Shown here: one piece after another, positions 59,011 through 64,000 of the stretch
How positions within the stretch are numbered: the stretch's first letter is position 1
Layout of the letters: each line of letters opens with the position of its first letter
Assembly: GCF_026242055.1 (NCBI RefSeq)
Contig: NZ_JAPJDL010000002.1
Span: 496,001-560,000 of the forward strand
Length of the DNA: 64,000 bases
Direction of reading: 5' to 3'
Origin: Lentzea sp. NEAU-D7
Lineage (GTDB): Bacteria > Actinomycetota > Actinomycetes > Mycobacteriales > Pseudonocardiaceae
Notes under the pieces: model-generated
The model's input: the letters and a program-made list of their open reading frames with translations, nothing else
Told to the model about the DNA's origin: nothing
Databases searched by the model: none
Program-made: the position numbers and the translations under genes

Positions 59011-59286
59011 ATGCTGCCGTCCGCCCGCACCGGCACGGTCCTCGTGGCCGTGCTCAGCGTGGCGTGCGCGCTCGCGGCCGTGCTGCTCGTGCTGACCGTG
59101 GTGCGGCCGGTGCCCCCGGACGTGCGCACGCCGGAAGTGCGGATAGGACGTTCCGCTCCGCCGACGACGTCCTCGGTGGCGCCCACGCCCGAGTCGGTGG
59201 TGCCCACGCCGGGACCGGCGGTGCCCGCACCGGGGTCGGTGCTGCCGCCGCCACCGCCGGTCGATGACGACGACGAGGACGACTGA
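59011..59286 (+). CDS. Small membrane protein with Pro-rich region and acidic tail
   Basis: A 91-residue protein. One membrane helix (about 8-33, TVLVAVLSVACALAAVLLVLTVV) is followed by a Pro/Val/Thr-rich extracellular stretch (VAPTPESVVPTPGPAVPAPGS) and the tail DDDDEDD. ATG 59011 is chosen over ATG 58975, because the earlier start lies inside the regulatory element and CAGGCT is seven bases before 59011, as in other leaderless genes here. It ends two bases before the sensor kinase start. An accessory, perhaps cation-binding, sensor role is a guess. Family not recognised. Confidence 0.65.
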   Translation: MLPSARTGTVLVAVLSVACALAAVLLVLTVVRPVPPDVRTPEVRIGRSAPPTTSSVAPTPESVVPTPGPAVPAPGSVLPPPPPVDDDDEDD

Positions 59287-59287
59287 C

Positions 59288-60583
59288 GTGCCCGCACGCG
59301 TGAAGATCATGTGCTGGCTCCTCGGCCTGATGACGCTCGTCCTCGCGACCGTCGTGGTCGTGGTGTGGCGCCTGCTGCTCGTCGACGTCGACGACCGCGT
59401 CAACCGCGCCCTGGAGCAGGAGACCACCGAGTTCGGCGCCTACGCGGAGAACCACGCCGGTGACGCCGGCACCGTCGCCGACGCCCACCTGCGCCTGCAG
59501 TACCCCGACGAGCACGAGGTCCACCTGGCCGTGCTGCCCGGCCACGTGCTGGTGCAGCGCTCCGAGGTGACCTACGCGCTGGAGAAGGACCGCGCCGTGC
59601 TGGACGCGATCACGTCCGCCGGCACGCCGTGGGGCGTCGCGTCCACCCCGGCCGGGCCGTTCCGGTGGGCGAAGGTGCACACGGCCGCGCCGGCGGAGAT
59701 GTGGTTCGTCACCGGCTACTTCGAGGACGGTGTCCGAGCGCCGGTGCACTCGACGGTGCGCGTCCTGGTGCTGGTGTCGCTGGCCGGCCTGCTGATCGCC
59801 GCCCTCATCGCGTGGCTCGTGGCGGGCGTGGTCCTCGCTCCGATCCGCGTGGTCCGCCAGGCCGCCGCCGAGATCACCGAGGCCGACCTCACCCGCCGGA
59901 TCCCGGTGTCGGGCAACGACGACGTGGCGGCGCTGGCGAAGCAGTTCAACTCGATGCTCGACCGCCTCGACCGCTCGTTCCGCCTGCAGCGCCAGTTCCT
60001 CGACGACGCCTCCCACGAACTGCGCACACCGATCACCATCGTCCGCGGCCACCTGGAACTGCTGGGCGACTCGCCGCAGGAGCGCGCCGACGTGGTGCGG
60101 CTGTGCACCGACGAGCTCGACCGCATGGCCCGCCTGGTCGAGGACCTGCTGCTGCTGGTCAAGTCCGAACGCCCGGACTTCCTGCGCCCCGTCACCGTCA
60201 GCCTGCCGGAGCTCACCAGCGACATCGACGCCCACCTCCGCGCCCTCGGCGACCGCCGCTGGGTGCTCGACTCGATCGCGGAAGGCGAGGCCGTGCTGGA
60301 CCCGCAACGCGTGACCCAGGCCGTTCTGCAGCTCGCCTCGAACGCCGTCCGCCACACCACCCCGGGCGCGACCATCCGCTTCGGATCCTCTGTGGACTCC
60401 GTCGTCTCCTTCTGGATCGCCGACTCCGGTCCCGGCGTGAGCGACGAGTCGCTGCTGTTCTCCCGCTCCACCGGCCTCGGCCTGCCGATCGTGAAGGCCA
60501 TCGCCGAAGCCCACGGAGGCGCCGTGCGGGTGAGCTCGGTGGCGGGCGAGGGCGCGACGTTCGTGGTGGAGGTGCCCCGATGA
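59288..60583 (+). CDS. Sensor histidine kinase
   Basis: A 431-residue membrane kinase of the OmpR-partner type. TM1 at about 6-31, an extracellular sensor of about 120 residues (VDDRVNRALEQETTEFGAYAENHAGDAG...), TM2 at about 155-182, HAMP to about 235, HisKA with the phospho-accepting His in FLDDASHELRTPITIV, and HATPase_c with N-box LASNAVRHT, G1 DSGPGV and G2 GLGLPIV. GTG 59288 follows the previous stop by one base, and the TGA overlaps the regulator ATG. The acidic small protein upstream may share the signal. Stimulus unknown; control of a carboxylate transporter suggests a metabolite. Confidence 0.93.
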   Translation: MPARVKIMCWLLGLMTLVLATVVVVVWRLLLVDVDDRVNRALEQETTEFGAYAENHAGDAGTVADAHLRLQYPDEHEVHLAVLPGHVLVQRSEVTYALEKDRAVLDAITSAGTPWGVASTPAGPFRWAKVHTAAPAEMWFVTGYFEDGVRAPVHSTVRVLVLVSLAGLLIAALIAWLVAGVVLAPIRVVRQAAAEITEADLTRRIPVSGNDDVAALAKQFNSMLDRLDRSFRLQRQFLDDASHELRTPITIVRGHLELLGDSPQERADVVRLCTDELDRMARLVEDLLLLVKSERPDFLRPVTVSLPELTSDIDAHLRALGDRRWVLDSIAEGEAVLDPQRVTQAVLQLASNAVRHTTPGATIRFGSSVDSVVSFWIADSGPGVSDESLLFSRSTGLGLPIVKAIAEAHGGAVRVSSVAGEGATFVVEVPR

Positions 60584-61233
60584 CCGGCCGGATCCTCATC
60601 GTCGAGGACGAGGCGCGCATCGCCTCGTTCGTGGAGAAAGGCCTGCGGGCCAACGGCTTCACCACGTCCGTCGTGGCCTCGGGAGCCGACGCGCTGTCGT
60701 GGGCCGCCTCGTTCGACCTGGTGGTGCTGGACCTCGGACTGCCCGACCTCGACGGCTTCTCCGTCCTGCGGTCCCTGCGCGACCAGGGCGTCACCACACC
60801 GGTGATCATCCTGACCGCCCGCGACTCGGTGCACGACACCGTGGCGGGCCTGTCCGGCGGCGCCGACGACTACATGACCAAACCGTTCCGCTTCGAGGAA
60901 CTGCTGGCGCGCGTCCGCCTCCGCCTGCGCCCGCCCGGCGTGCCCGAGGCGACGGTGCTCACCGCCGGCTCGCTGTCGCTCGACCTGCGCACCCGCCAGG
61001 CCGTGCTGCCGTCCGGCCCGGTGGACCTCACCGCGCGCGAGTTCGCCCTGCTGGAGCTGTTCCTGCGGCATCCCGGGCAGGTGCTGGTGCGCGAACAGAT
61101 CCTCTCCCACGTCTGGGGCTACGACTTCGACCCCGGGTCCAACGTGGTCGACGTGTACGTGCGCTCGTTGCGGCGCAAGATCGGCGCGGAGCGGCTGGAG
61201 ACCGTGCGCGGCATGGGGTACCGCCTCAGCTAG
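60580..61233 (+). CDS. OmpR/PhoB-family response regulator
   Basis: A 217-residue regulator. The receiver domain (1-115) has the acidic pocket (VEDEARI), phosphorylated Asp in VVLDLGLPDLDG (about 51), Thr in IILTARD and Lys in MTKPF. The C-terminal winged helix (about 125-217; LTAREFALLELFLRHPGQVLVREQILSHVW, NVVDVYVRSLRRKIG) binds tandem repeats. ATG 60580 overlaps the kinase stop (ATGA). The stop codon's last base begins regulatory element 2, so the transporter promoter sits directly behind. It is the likely binder of both elements. Confidence 0.94.
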   Translation: MTGRILIVEDEARIASFVEKGLRANGFTTSVVASGADALSWAASFDLVVLDLGLPDLDGFSVLRSLRDQGVTTPVIILTARDSVHDTVAGLSGGADDYMTKPFRFEELLARVRLRLRPPGVPEATVLTAGSLSLDLRTRQAVLPSGPVDLTAREFALLELFLRHPGQVLVREQILSHVWGYDFDPGSNVVDVYVRSLRRKIGAERLETVRGMGYRLS

Positions 61234-61294: not shown

Positions 61295-63139
61295 GTGATG
61301 CTGACGCTGGTGGTCTTCGCGGTGGCGGTGGTGCTGTGGACGTGCACACCGCTGGACGACACGTTCGTCGCCCTCGCCGCCGTCGTGACCCTGCTGCTGT
61401 TCGGAGTCCTGCCCGCCTCGGCCCTGGCGGTGCTGGGAGGCTCGACGACGTGGCTGCTCATCGCCGCGTTCGTGCTGGCCGCGGGCGTCTCGGCGTCCGG
61501 GCTGCCCACGCGCCTGGCGACCTCGCTGGTGGGACGTGCCCGCTCGGTGCGCGGTCTGATGCACCTGACGGCGTTCGCCTTGCTGCTCACGGCGTTCTTC
61601 GTGCCGTCCACCTCGGGCCGTGCCGCCCTGACCCTGCCGGTGTACCGGGCTCTGCGGGTCAACGCGCGGGTGTCGCGGGCGCTCGGGGTGCTGTTCCCGT
61701 CGGTGATCCTGCTGACCGCGGTGGCGACGCTGGTGGGGGCGGGGGCGCACCTGATCACCAGCGCTTTGCTGGAGCAGGCGACGGGGCAGGGGATCGGGTT
61801 CGGGCAGTGGATGCTGCTCGGGCTCCCGCTCGCGGTGGTCAGCGCGCACGTGACGGCCGAAGTGGTGTTGTGGCTGTTCACGAGCCGTGCGGACCGCGCG
61901 GAGCCGCTGGTTGGCGCTGCGGAGCCGTTGACCGGCCATGGGGAGCCGTTGACCGGTCATGCGGAGCCGCTGGCTGACGGTGTGGATTCGTTGGTTGGCG
62001 GTGTGGGGTCGGCTGGCCGTGCGGAATCGTTGGCCGGCCGTGCGGGGGCGTCGACTGGCCACCCGCAGCCGCTGGCTGGCCGTGCCGGGCCGCTCGCTGG
62101 CCACACGCAGCCGCTGGCTGGCCGGATGGAGCCGCTCGCGAGCCACACTCAGCCGTTGAATCGCCACACGCAGCCGTCGGCCAGCCACGCGCAACTGTTG
62201 ACTGGCCATGCGGAACCGTTGGCTGGCCGCACCCAGCCGCTGGCTGACCGAGTGGAACCGTTGGCTGACCGCACCCCGCCGCTGGCTGACCGAGTGGAAC
62301 CGTTGGCTGGCCGCACCCCGCCGCTGACTGGCCGAGTGGAGCCGCTGGCCGACCACACTCAGCCGTTGAACCGCCGCACCCAGCCGCTGACTGGCCGCGC
62401 GAAGCCGCTGACCGGCCACACGCAGCCCCTGAACGTGAGCCACGAGCCCACAGCCGCCCTCGCAGCGCGGAGCGAGGGTCCCCTCCCAGGGGACCCCTGT
62501 TCTGATTCTCCCAGACAGCACCGACAGTTTTCGGCGCTCACCAGGCCCGAGATCACCTCCCTGGTCATCGTCGGCGTCGTCTCGGCGGGGTGGCTGACCG
62601 AGTCCTGGCACCACGTCCCGCCCGAGGTCACCGCCCTCGCCGGCGCCGTCGCCATCACCGCGCCGCGCCTCGGCACCACGACGCTCAAAGCCGCGTTCGC
62701 CGAGATCCCGTGGTCGCTCCTGCTCTTCATGGCCGCCACCACGATGCTCGGCTCGGCCCTGGTCAGCTCCGGCGCGGCGCACACCGTCGCCACCCTCATC
62801 AACCCGGCCCACCTGCTGCCGACCGTGATCGTGGTGAGCCTCCTCGCGCACCTCGTCATCCAGTCCCGCTCGGCCCGCTCCTCGGTCCTGGTCCCGATCG
62901 TCATCCCGCTCGCCGCGGCCGCGGGCATGAACCCCGCCGCGCTGGCATTCATCTCCACCGCGGCCGCCGGCTTCTGCCACACCACCACGGCGTCCGCGAA
63001 ACCGGTCGCCCTCTTCGCCGACGCCTACAGCCAGCGGGACCTGCTCAAGCTCTCGGCGGTCCTGGCGCCGATCACCGGCGCGCTCGTCCTCGCGTGCGCC
63101 GTTCTCCTCTGGCCGCATCTCGGCCTGCCACTGAAATGA
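61295..63139 (+). CDS. SLC13/DASS-type transporter with a 26-unit heptapeptide repeat in its central loop
   Basis: A 614-residue membrane protein of the divalent anion/sodium symporter superfamily. The N-terminal half (1-195) has about six spans and a VPSTSGRAALTLP hairpin resembling the SNT substrate motif. The C-terminal half (430-614) has the matching QSRSARSSVLVPIVIP hairpin and TAAAGFCHTTTASAKPVALF. Between them lie residues 201-381, 26 tandem units of consensus (H/R)xxPL(A/T)G, then a 45-residue linker. Without the repeats it would be 433 residues, a normal family length. GTG start, leaderless. The glycerate kinase starts nine bases after its stop, suggesting glycerate or a similar carboxylate as substrate. 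Confidence 0.8.
   Translation: MMLTLVVFAVAVVLWTCTPLDDTFVALAAVVTLLLFGVLPASALAVLGGSTTWLLIAAFVLAAGVSASGLPTRLATSLVGRARSVRGLMHLTAFALLLTAFFVPSTSGRAALTLPVYRALRVNARVSRALGVLFPSVILLTAVATLVGAGAHLITSALLEQATGQGIGFGQWMLLGLPLAVVSAHVTAEVVLWLFTSRADRAEPLVGAAEPLTGHGEPLTGHAEPLADGVDSLVGGVGSAGRAESLAGRAGASTGHPQPLAGRAGPLAGHTQPLAGRMEPLASHTQPLNRHTQPSASHAQLLTGHAEPLAGRTQPLADRVEPLADRTPPLADRVEPLAGRTPPLTGRVEPLADHTQPLNRRTQPLTGRAKPLTGHTQPLNVSHEPTAALAARSEGPLPGDPCSDSPRQHRQFSALTRPEITSLVIVGVVSAGWLTESWHHVPPEVTALAGAVAITAPRLGTTTLKAAFAEIPWSLLLFMAATTMLGSALVSSGAAHTVATLINPAHLLPTVIVVSLLAHLVIQSRSARSSVLVPIVIPLAAAAGMNPAALAFISTAAAGFCHTTTASAKPVALFADAYSQRDLLKLSAVLAPITGALVLACAVLLWPHLGLPLK
61895..62437 (+). repeat. In-frame 21-bp minisatellite, 26 units
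   Basis: Twenty-five units of 21 bases and one of 18 (unit 6), in frame within the transporter gene. Typical units read RTQPLAD, RVEPLAG, HTQPLNR and HAEPLTG. Units 17-22 (62228-62353) form three near-identical copies of a 42-base dimer, a sign of recent expansion; units 4-8 are the most diverged. All six frames stay open through the array, so long opposite-strand frames here are artefacts. Confidence 0.92.
62476..62496. repeat. Perfect hairpin just after the minisatellite, inside the gene
   Basis: GGGTCCCCT (62476-62484), CCC, AGGGGACCC (62488-62496): a 9-bp perfect stem with a three-base loop. The following 35 bases (TGTTCTGATTCTCCCAGAC...) differ in character from the surrounding GC-rich coding sequence. 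It may be a small palindromic (REP/MITE-like) insertion captured in the linker. Confidence 0.5.
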
Positions 63140-63147
63140 GGTCACCG

Positions 63148-64000
63148 ATGCGTTTCCTGGTCGCTCCCAGCGGTTTCAAGGAGTCTTTGGACGCGTGCGA
63201 CGTCGCCGATGCGATCGCACGGGGCATCTACCGCGTGGTGCCCGGCGCCATCGTGGACAAGGCACCGCTCGTCGACGGCGGCGAGGGCTCGGCCCGGGCG
63301 CTCGCCGAAGCCACGAACGGCGCGCTCGTCCCCGCGCTCGTCACCGGACCGGTCGGCGAGCAGATCCCGTCCCACTTCGCGCTGCTCGGCGGCCCCGGCC
63401 CGCGCACGGCGGTGGTCGAGATGGCCGCGGCGGCAGGACTGAGGCTCGTCCCGAAGGACCACCGCGACCCGGCGACCACCACCACGTACGGCGTCGGTGA
63501 GCTGATCCGCGCAGCCCTGGACCTCGGCGTCGACCGCATTCTGGTCGGGTGCGGCGACTCCGGCACGTCGGACGGCGGCGCGGGCGCGCTGCAGGCGCTG
63601 GGGGCCCGCATCACCGACGCGCACGGCCGCGAGATCGGACGCGGGGGAGCGGCCCTGGCCGGCGCCGCCGCACTCGATCTGTCCGAAGTGGACCCCAGGC
63701 TCGACAAGGCCGAGATCACCGTGGCCTGCAACCAGCACAACGTCCTGTGCGGCGACCGGGGCGTGGCGAGGGTGTTCGGCCCGCAGAAGGGCGCGGCCCC
63801 GGCACAGGTCGAACTGCTCAGCGACGCCTTGGACAACTGGGCCGACCTGCTCGGTCCCGGCGTCCGCACCATGCCGGGCGGGGGCGCGTCCGGCGGGCTC
63901 GGCGCCGGCCTGCACGCGCTGGGCGCCACCCTGCTGCCGCGCTTCGACGTCGTCCTCGAGCACTCCGACCTCGACGCCCGCCTGCCGGAGGCCGACCTGG
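63148..64000 (+). CDS. Glycerate kinase (GlxK/GarK family), partial at window end
   Basis: The first 284 codons of a glycerate 2-kinase, running off the window. Family signatures: VAPSGFKESLDACDVADAIARGI at the start, APLVDGGEGSARAL (about 39-52), VGCGDSGTSDGGAGALQALGA (about 132-152), and VACNQHNVLCG with MPGGGASGGLGAGLHALGA. Family members are about 370-380 residues, so roughly a quarter is missing. ATG 63148 is eight bases after the transporter stop, with GAGG at 63138-63141. It phosphorylates glycerate for entry into glycolysis or the serine pathway. It is probably co-transcribed with the transporter under the two-component system. Confidence 0.92.
   Translation, partial: MRFLVAPSGFKESLDACDVADAIARGIYRVVPGAIVDKAPLVDGGEGSARALAEATNGALVPALVTGPVGEQIPSHFALLGGPGPRTAVVEMAAAAGLRLVPKDHRDPATTTTYGVGELIRAALDLGVDRILVGCGDSGTSDGGAGALQALGARITDAHGREIGRGGAALAGAAALDLSEVDPRLDKAEITVACNQHNVLCGDRGVARVFGPQKGAAPAQVELLSDALDNWADLLGPGVRTMPGGGASGGLGAGLHALGATLLPRFDVVLEHSDLDARLPEADL

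Follow-up and report, generated by a model that had tools for sequence, protein, structure and literature searches.

A lineage-specific minisatellite in a Lentzea permease loop and its association with a dispersed hairpin-forming element

An in-frame array within a DASS-like permease

The window analysed here, a stretch of 64,000 nucleotides from Lentzea sp. NEAU-D7, contains a membrane transporter gene that is split by a minisatellite. How did an array of this kind form between the two halves of a permease, and does it serve the protein? The gene (61295..63139, + strand; called from the list of open reading frames, Pfam and Foldseek) is predicted to encode a DASS/SLC13-like permease 614 aa long, with a GTG start at 61295 followed by an ATG at 61298. 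Using Tandem Repeats Finder together with unit-by-unit reading, we located the array at 61895..62437 on the + strand (score 194-245). It is comprised of 26 heptapeptide units, 25 of them 21 bp long and one, at 62000, of 18 bp, and covers 181 codons with the frame kept throughout. The permease without the array is 433 residues long. Unit reading also showed three copies of a 42-bp dimer within the array (62228..62353, + strand). An earlier note, made from the sequence alone, had described the in-frame array between the halves of the transporter, the length left upon its removal and the three dimers, and we found all of these as described. It had also reported diverged units at one end; the most diverged units (61979-62059) do lie towards the 5' end, but they are not the terminal ones.

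The genome is a draft of 43 contigs, in which the length of an array could be wrong. Against this, the units are diverged and the longest exact repeat within the array is 32 bp, so the array should be resolvable by ordinary short reads, and long but different loops are also seen in orthologues from other assemblies. We therefore regard an assembly artefact as very improbable. Searching the array as DNA against its own 9.3-Mb genome returned the array itself only (best 40 of 115 candidates), and a degenerate unit pattern allowing up to three mismatches was found 305/278 times (forward/reverse) in this genome versus 336/330 times for the reversed control, which is no excess. Within the scope of these searches the unit is not a dispersed satellite, a point that the earlier note had raised.

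The permease scored above the gathering thresholds of Pfam Na_sulph_symp (82.6 vs 27 bits) and CitMHS (127.3 vs 31.9 bits). Its match to the NCBIfam DASS model TIGR00785, 108.6 bits, is under the cut-off of 198.6 bits, and for this reason we call it DASS-like. The DASS-type fold claimed earlier is borne out by the predicted structure, for which the best PDB matches in Foldseek were NaS1, NaDC3, NaCT, and VcINDY (E 1e-8 to 1e-6). The permease has the same fold and two-half architecture as VcINDY and NaCT. DASS/SLC13 carriers have two SN(T)-type ligand/sodium motifs. Alignment with VcINDY places STS and SRS at these two positions of the permease, whereas the motifs of VcINDY contain SN; the permease also differs in having a long loop that holds the array and the element described below. 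Both halves were predicted confidently, and residues 208-409 have a pLDDT of about 30, in agreement with the long linker loop that had been proposed. This loop, which we take to be cytoplasmic from the topology of DASS proteins, is probably a disordered linker according to the structural model. Among open-licence papers, we found none on point by title concerning an SLC13/DASS protein with a tandem-repeat loop.

Domain searches of the neighbouring genes, all on the + strand, identified a histidine kinase with HAMP, HisKA, and HATPase_c domains (59264..60583; the start may be 59300) and an OmpR-type response regulator (60583..61233) upstream of the permease, and a glycerate kinase gene that runs off the window (63148..63999) downstream of it. 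Another 21-bp tandem repeat lies just 5' of the histidine kinase gene at 59174-59246 of the window (3.5 copies, score 69). In a comparison of 12 loci that included the one in the window, a glycerate kinase lies 3' of the permease in 12/12 and the histidine kinase and response regulator lie 5' of it in 11/12. From this gene arrangement we infer that the substrate is of the glycerate type.

We compared the loop across permease orthologues, as the earlier note had proposed, and found large variation among Lentzea. Almost all of the best relatives that carry a name belong to Lentzea, one being a metagenome bin with the label Saccharothrix; a second strain of this species did not turn up. Placed by anchors, the loop ranges from 17 to 217 residues in 34 rows of the permease clade, and from 20 to 25 in three outgroup rows; eight rows were lost to anchor failure (P0002, P0011, P0019, P0023, P0024, P0032, P0049, P0055), and the partial protein P0041 was set aside. 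In the closest relatives, whose loops are 50-57 residues long, one to three AEPLAGQVEPL-type seed units occupy the same place. Two short arrays peculiar to L. albidocapillata subsp. violacea occur in this loop, and other lineages have unrelated repeats there (e.g. AHATSAHATAGHAT, PAEARPAEARPAE, VTGERVTGGRATGG). Thus, repeats arose more than once in the permease loop.

These comparisons bear on whether the array is a selected module, that is, a long cytoplasmic linker, rich in Pro, that would tether the two domains to each other, engage a partner or set transport activity through its length, as the earlier note had suggested. The array is in frame throughout and the dN/dS of its units is 0.63, below 1, both of which are consistent with selection on the peptide. 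However, dN/dS is also 0.71 in one shifted frame (1.20 in the other), the loops of sister species are only 50-57 residues long and those of others 17-42, and the repeats of sister lineages are either unrelated in sequence or absent. GC3 is 0.79 in the array units versus 0.949 in the N half of the permease, and the units evolve in a nearly neutral way. The role envisaged earlier is thus not borne out, and we consider a selected module quite unlikely, although the array may have a function in this one species.

In one further orthologue, that of genome G002 (L009, 1444-3366), the frame is broken by a stop codon within the loop, and part of the C half is duplicated beyond the element, so that STLTKPELTALITVLTVSALWLTEPWHGLPPEIPALA occurs twice. 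This is a sign that changes in the loop can damage the gene.

A dispersed hairpin-forming element in the same loop

The permease loop of the window also carries a copy of a dispersed Lentzea element of about 78 bp (62462..62538, + strand; 70.5 bits with our sequence model R1, which was built on 23 copies). This copy is in frame and is separated from the end of the array by 25 bp. Neither the element nor its link to other arrays in Lentzea was described in the earlier note. Its peptide, AARSEGPLPGxPCSNSPRQHRQF, is kept in an otherwise variable loop, and folding prediction places a hairpin with the inner stem GGGTCCCCT/AGGGGACCC at 62468..62504 on the + strand. In the permease clade, the loops of the 23 element-bearing rows are 50-217 aa long and those of the 11 element-free rows 17-42 aa, and 14 of the 23 are still longer than 42 residues after subtracting 26 for the element; the rows are related by descent, so these counts are not independent. 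Of the rows lost to anchor failure, the first six (P0002 to P0032) carry the element by our reading of the orthologues.

With up to 150 candidates scored per genome, matches to R1 at an E value of 1e-3 or better were found in 24/24 Lentzea genomes, with at least 6 to 70 copies per genome and at least 16 in the genome of the window. Genome G023 has a distinct subfamily of the element with at least 70 matches. When 150 genomes drawn from the family were searched at 1e-5, with 30 candidates scored in each, at least 28 had matches, at least 21 of them outside Lentzea, and the highest count, at least 30 copies, was in genus g43. To describe the sites we used 88 copies for which 10 kb of surrounding sequence was taken, which are 92 matches minus the four lowest-scoring. 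By gene calls made here, 68 are intergenic, 13 lie mostly within a predicted CDS, and seven partly so. The coding copies are in the permease, in a CoA-ligase/ATP-grasp protein, in the C-terminal end of NAD(P)H-hydrate dehydratase (two genomes), and elsewhere, with one host protein of each kind scanned for domains. Both the strand and the frame in which the element is read vary from gene to gene. In four Lentzea genomes (loci L250, L221, L188, and L257), it is in frame on the opposite strand in a linker of the CoA-ligase/ATP-grasp protein.

The predicted hairpin surpasses at least 38 of 40 shuffled sequences in stability in 57/88 and 33/40 copies, and in 26/40 copies from g43. RNAalifold run on 23 copies gave seven pairs, none with a compensatory change, so a conserved RNA structure is not supported and we claim hairpin potential only. 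A search of 61800-62700 against Rfam gave one chance-level match (16.4 bits vs a gathering score of 90).

The element's 23 codons have diverged little at synonymous sites. Among eight Lentzea permease genes, pS is 0.086 and pN 0.045 in the element, and pS is 0.295 and 0.279 in the N and C halves of the same genes; this comparison excluded G002, whose permease has a broken frame, and G001, which is without the element. A pS as low as that of the element was seen in 0/341 windows of the same length and in 0/20,000 random codon draws. This points to constraint on the element as DNA or RNA, rather than as peptide. Gene conversion between copies may also lie behind the low synonymous divergence. 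The permease copies have a common left end, AGCGCGGAGCGAGGG, that is missing from most other copies.

No terminal inverted repeats are evident in the Lentzea alignment of the element, and the one site examined for a clean empty site did not provide one. The Y1 transposase family PF01797 had no match in 3/3 Lentzea genomes and matched 5/14 control genomes, ruling out RAYT-driven mobility in the Lentzea genomes searched. A related sequence in another family (L086, genome G039, about 1460-1630) has inverted ends formed by two TGTCGGTGCC boxes that face each other, and looks like a complete MITE.

On the - strand of the window's copy, a TGTCGGTG-8 nt-GAGAAT box (62505..62526) resembles the RecA-NDp/PafBC promoter consensus, given in PMC5656591 as tTGTCRgtg-8 nt-TannnT, except that its -10 hexamer lacks the first T. 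TGTCR and nAnnnT are present at RecA-NDp spacing on the strand opposite the gene in 85/88 Lentzea copies, the box positions being part of what R1 was built on, and a full -10 of TAnnnT is present in 0/88. We note the likeness to a promoter without claiming that the box is one. The box would face a gene of matching orientation in 32/75 Lentzea copies and in 5/33 copies from g43, counts that do not support a general role of the element as an ordinary promoter of the neighbouring gene. If the box were damage-responsive and fired into its own hairpin, stress could cause slippage and hence new arrays and disordered protein segments wherever the element sits; we regard this as unlikely. At about 1460-1630 of L056 (G000 contig C15), two TGTCGGTGCT boxes face each other in an inverted repeat, and one of the boxes has a TATGAT hexamer at PafBC spacing.

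Tandem arrays beside the element in Lentzea

We asked how often arrays accompany the element, counting those with a Tandem Repeats Finder score of at least 60 that lie within 100 bp and mainly outside it. Arrays adjoin 30/88 copies of the element versus 9/254 control gaps. With orthologous sites grouped and the first member of each taken, the counts are 18/40 loci versus 8/181 non-divergent gaps (P 6e-10), and the same 18/40 versus 5/79 gaps of at least 150 bp (P 1.3e-6). G023 accounts for 14 of the 30 array-positive copies (14/26 of its copies examined), and leaving it out gave 16/62 versus 7/142 (P 4e-5). Array-adjacent copies are absent from 3/11 genomes of this first Lentzea set. A second Lentzea set showed a smaller effect at the same limits, 6/40 versus 3/91 (P 0.023), with 6/40 versus 1/42 against gaps of at least 150 bp (P 0.054) and 10/40 versus 5/91 within 200 bp (P 0.0024). 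When the two sets were pooled, with gap length and gene arrangement as strata, the odds ratio was 6.3 (P 1.6e-5). Thus, minisatellites are associated with the element in Lentzea.

It is possible that this association reflects shared permissiveness, with elements and minisatellites both gathering where DNA is free to vary and neither causing the other. Only 1/75 copies that are not mostly coding lies in a gap between divergent genes, as expected if elements settle where they do no harm. The excess of arrays is carried by gaps of at least 200 bp (19/34 vs 6/90), with no excess in gaps under 200 bp (1/57 vs 5/182), although an array itself lengthens its gap. Genus g43 shows no significant excess (8/40 vs 12/88, P 0.43; at a score of 50, 13/40 vs 15/88, P 0.065), and we therefore limit our claim to Lentzea. 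On the other hand, the excess persists against non-divergent gaps, against gaps of at least 150 bp, and after stratification. The arrays also crowd the element: their density is about 3 per kb at distances of 1-10 bp from it and declines to 0.06-0.08 per kb beyond 800 bp, a far figure that includes coding DNA, and 13/98 arrays touch the element or lie within 10 bp of it, eight of them touching. Moreover, gaps with other hairpins have arrays in only 5/54, 3/33 or 2/22 cases, depending on stem length, compared with 6/127, 8/148 or 9/159 for hairpin-free gaps. Taking both sides together, we think shared permissiveness a doubtful explanation, though one with some weight. The arrays lie on the hairpin side in 23 cases and on the other side in 15, and we claim no side preference.

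The arrays beside the elements have units unrelated to one another, each made of the local sequence at its site. At eight orthologous sites with at least three copies, arrays are present in 1/10, 1/3, 3/7, 2/6, 2/8, 1/4, 0/5, and 1/5 copies, both array-bearing copies of the 2/8 site being in one genome. Orthologous elements are common to up to ten genomes and the arrays are sporadic, so the element usually came before the array.

Because unrelated arrays are unusually common beside the hairpin in Lentzea, the hairpin likely promotes their birth. The reading that we favour, with somewhat better than even confidence, is that the permease array is a lineage-specific minisatellite formed from 21-bp segments native to the loop, its formation likely promoted by the embedded, genus-wide hairpin element. 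Under this reading, native segments would duplicate in tandem, in frame and repeatedly, and the adjoining hairpin would seed such duplications by making replication or repair slip. The units of the window's array contain no element sequence and the array stops 25 bp short of the element, which counts against seeding by the element in this instance. The loop, as a disordered linker that is probably cytoplasmic, would tolerate the array, with selection mainly keeping the frame, and the array itself is probably without a dedicated function. We see it best as one outcome of a broader process in this genus by which minisatellites of local sequence form beside the element, both between genes and, if the frame permits, within proteins. 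The association and the order of events come from the counts above; the causal role of the element and the molecular mechanism of array birth are what we infer from them.

The birth of bacterial minisatellites is usually guessed from finished arrays. Here an alignable dispersed element marks many sites, with and without arrays, so that array birth can be traced through orthologous sites. The element is also apparently constrained as DNA or RNA, yet it lies inside a coding frame and contributes a segment of a membrane protein.

Comparison with known systems

In the open-licence literature, we found no paper on point by title for tandem repeats in Lentzea and none joining repetitive extragenic palindromic sequences, minisatellites, and Streptomyces. 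The link between element and array is, as far as that literature goes, new.

Rickettsia palindromic elements (RPE) have one conserved peptide in all insertions, whereas the Lentzea element, with its varying strands and frames, does not. PMC10969869, following Ogata 2000 and 2002, describes RPE as dispersed palindromes in frame within protein genes, to which they add a peptide. The Lentzea element is likewise dispersed and self-complementary (24/24 genomes) and, by the gene calls made here, in frame in unrelated protein genes. It differs in being about 78 bp long rather than about 150, in being mostly intergenic (68/88), in having no fixed strand or frame across genes, in having unrelated minisatellites alongside, and in its host, a free-living actinomycete; we set the two apart by description. 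The REP/RAYT system, as described in PMC3733652, also consists of short dispersed palindromes that are mostly intergenic, but the Y1 transposase family of that system had no match in the three Lentzea genomes searched.

Borg elements contain rapidly evolving, independently formed, in-frame tandem repeats that give rise to disordered protein regions, according to the sections of PMC9879509 on these repeats. The repeats of the permease loop are also in frame, independently formed, and predicted to be disordered. In Lentzea, unlike in Borgs as those sections describe them, a dispersed hairpin element lies alongside the repeats, and the hosts are different. The BrickBuilt MITE of Porphyromonas gingivalis resembles our system in that a dispersed element is joined to a minisatellite. 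In the account of it that we drew from PMC4596501, BrickBuilt has one shared 23-nt unit and is always intergenic, whereas the Lentzea sites each have their own local unit and one site lies inside a gene.
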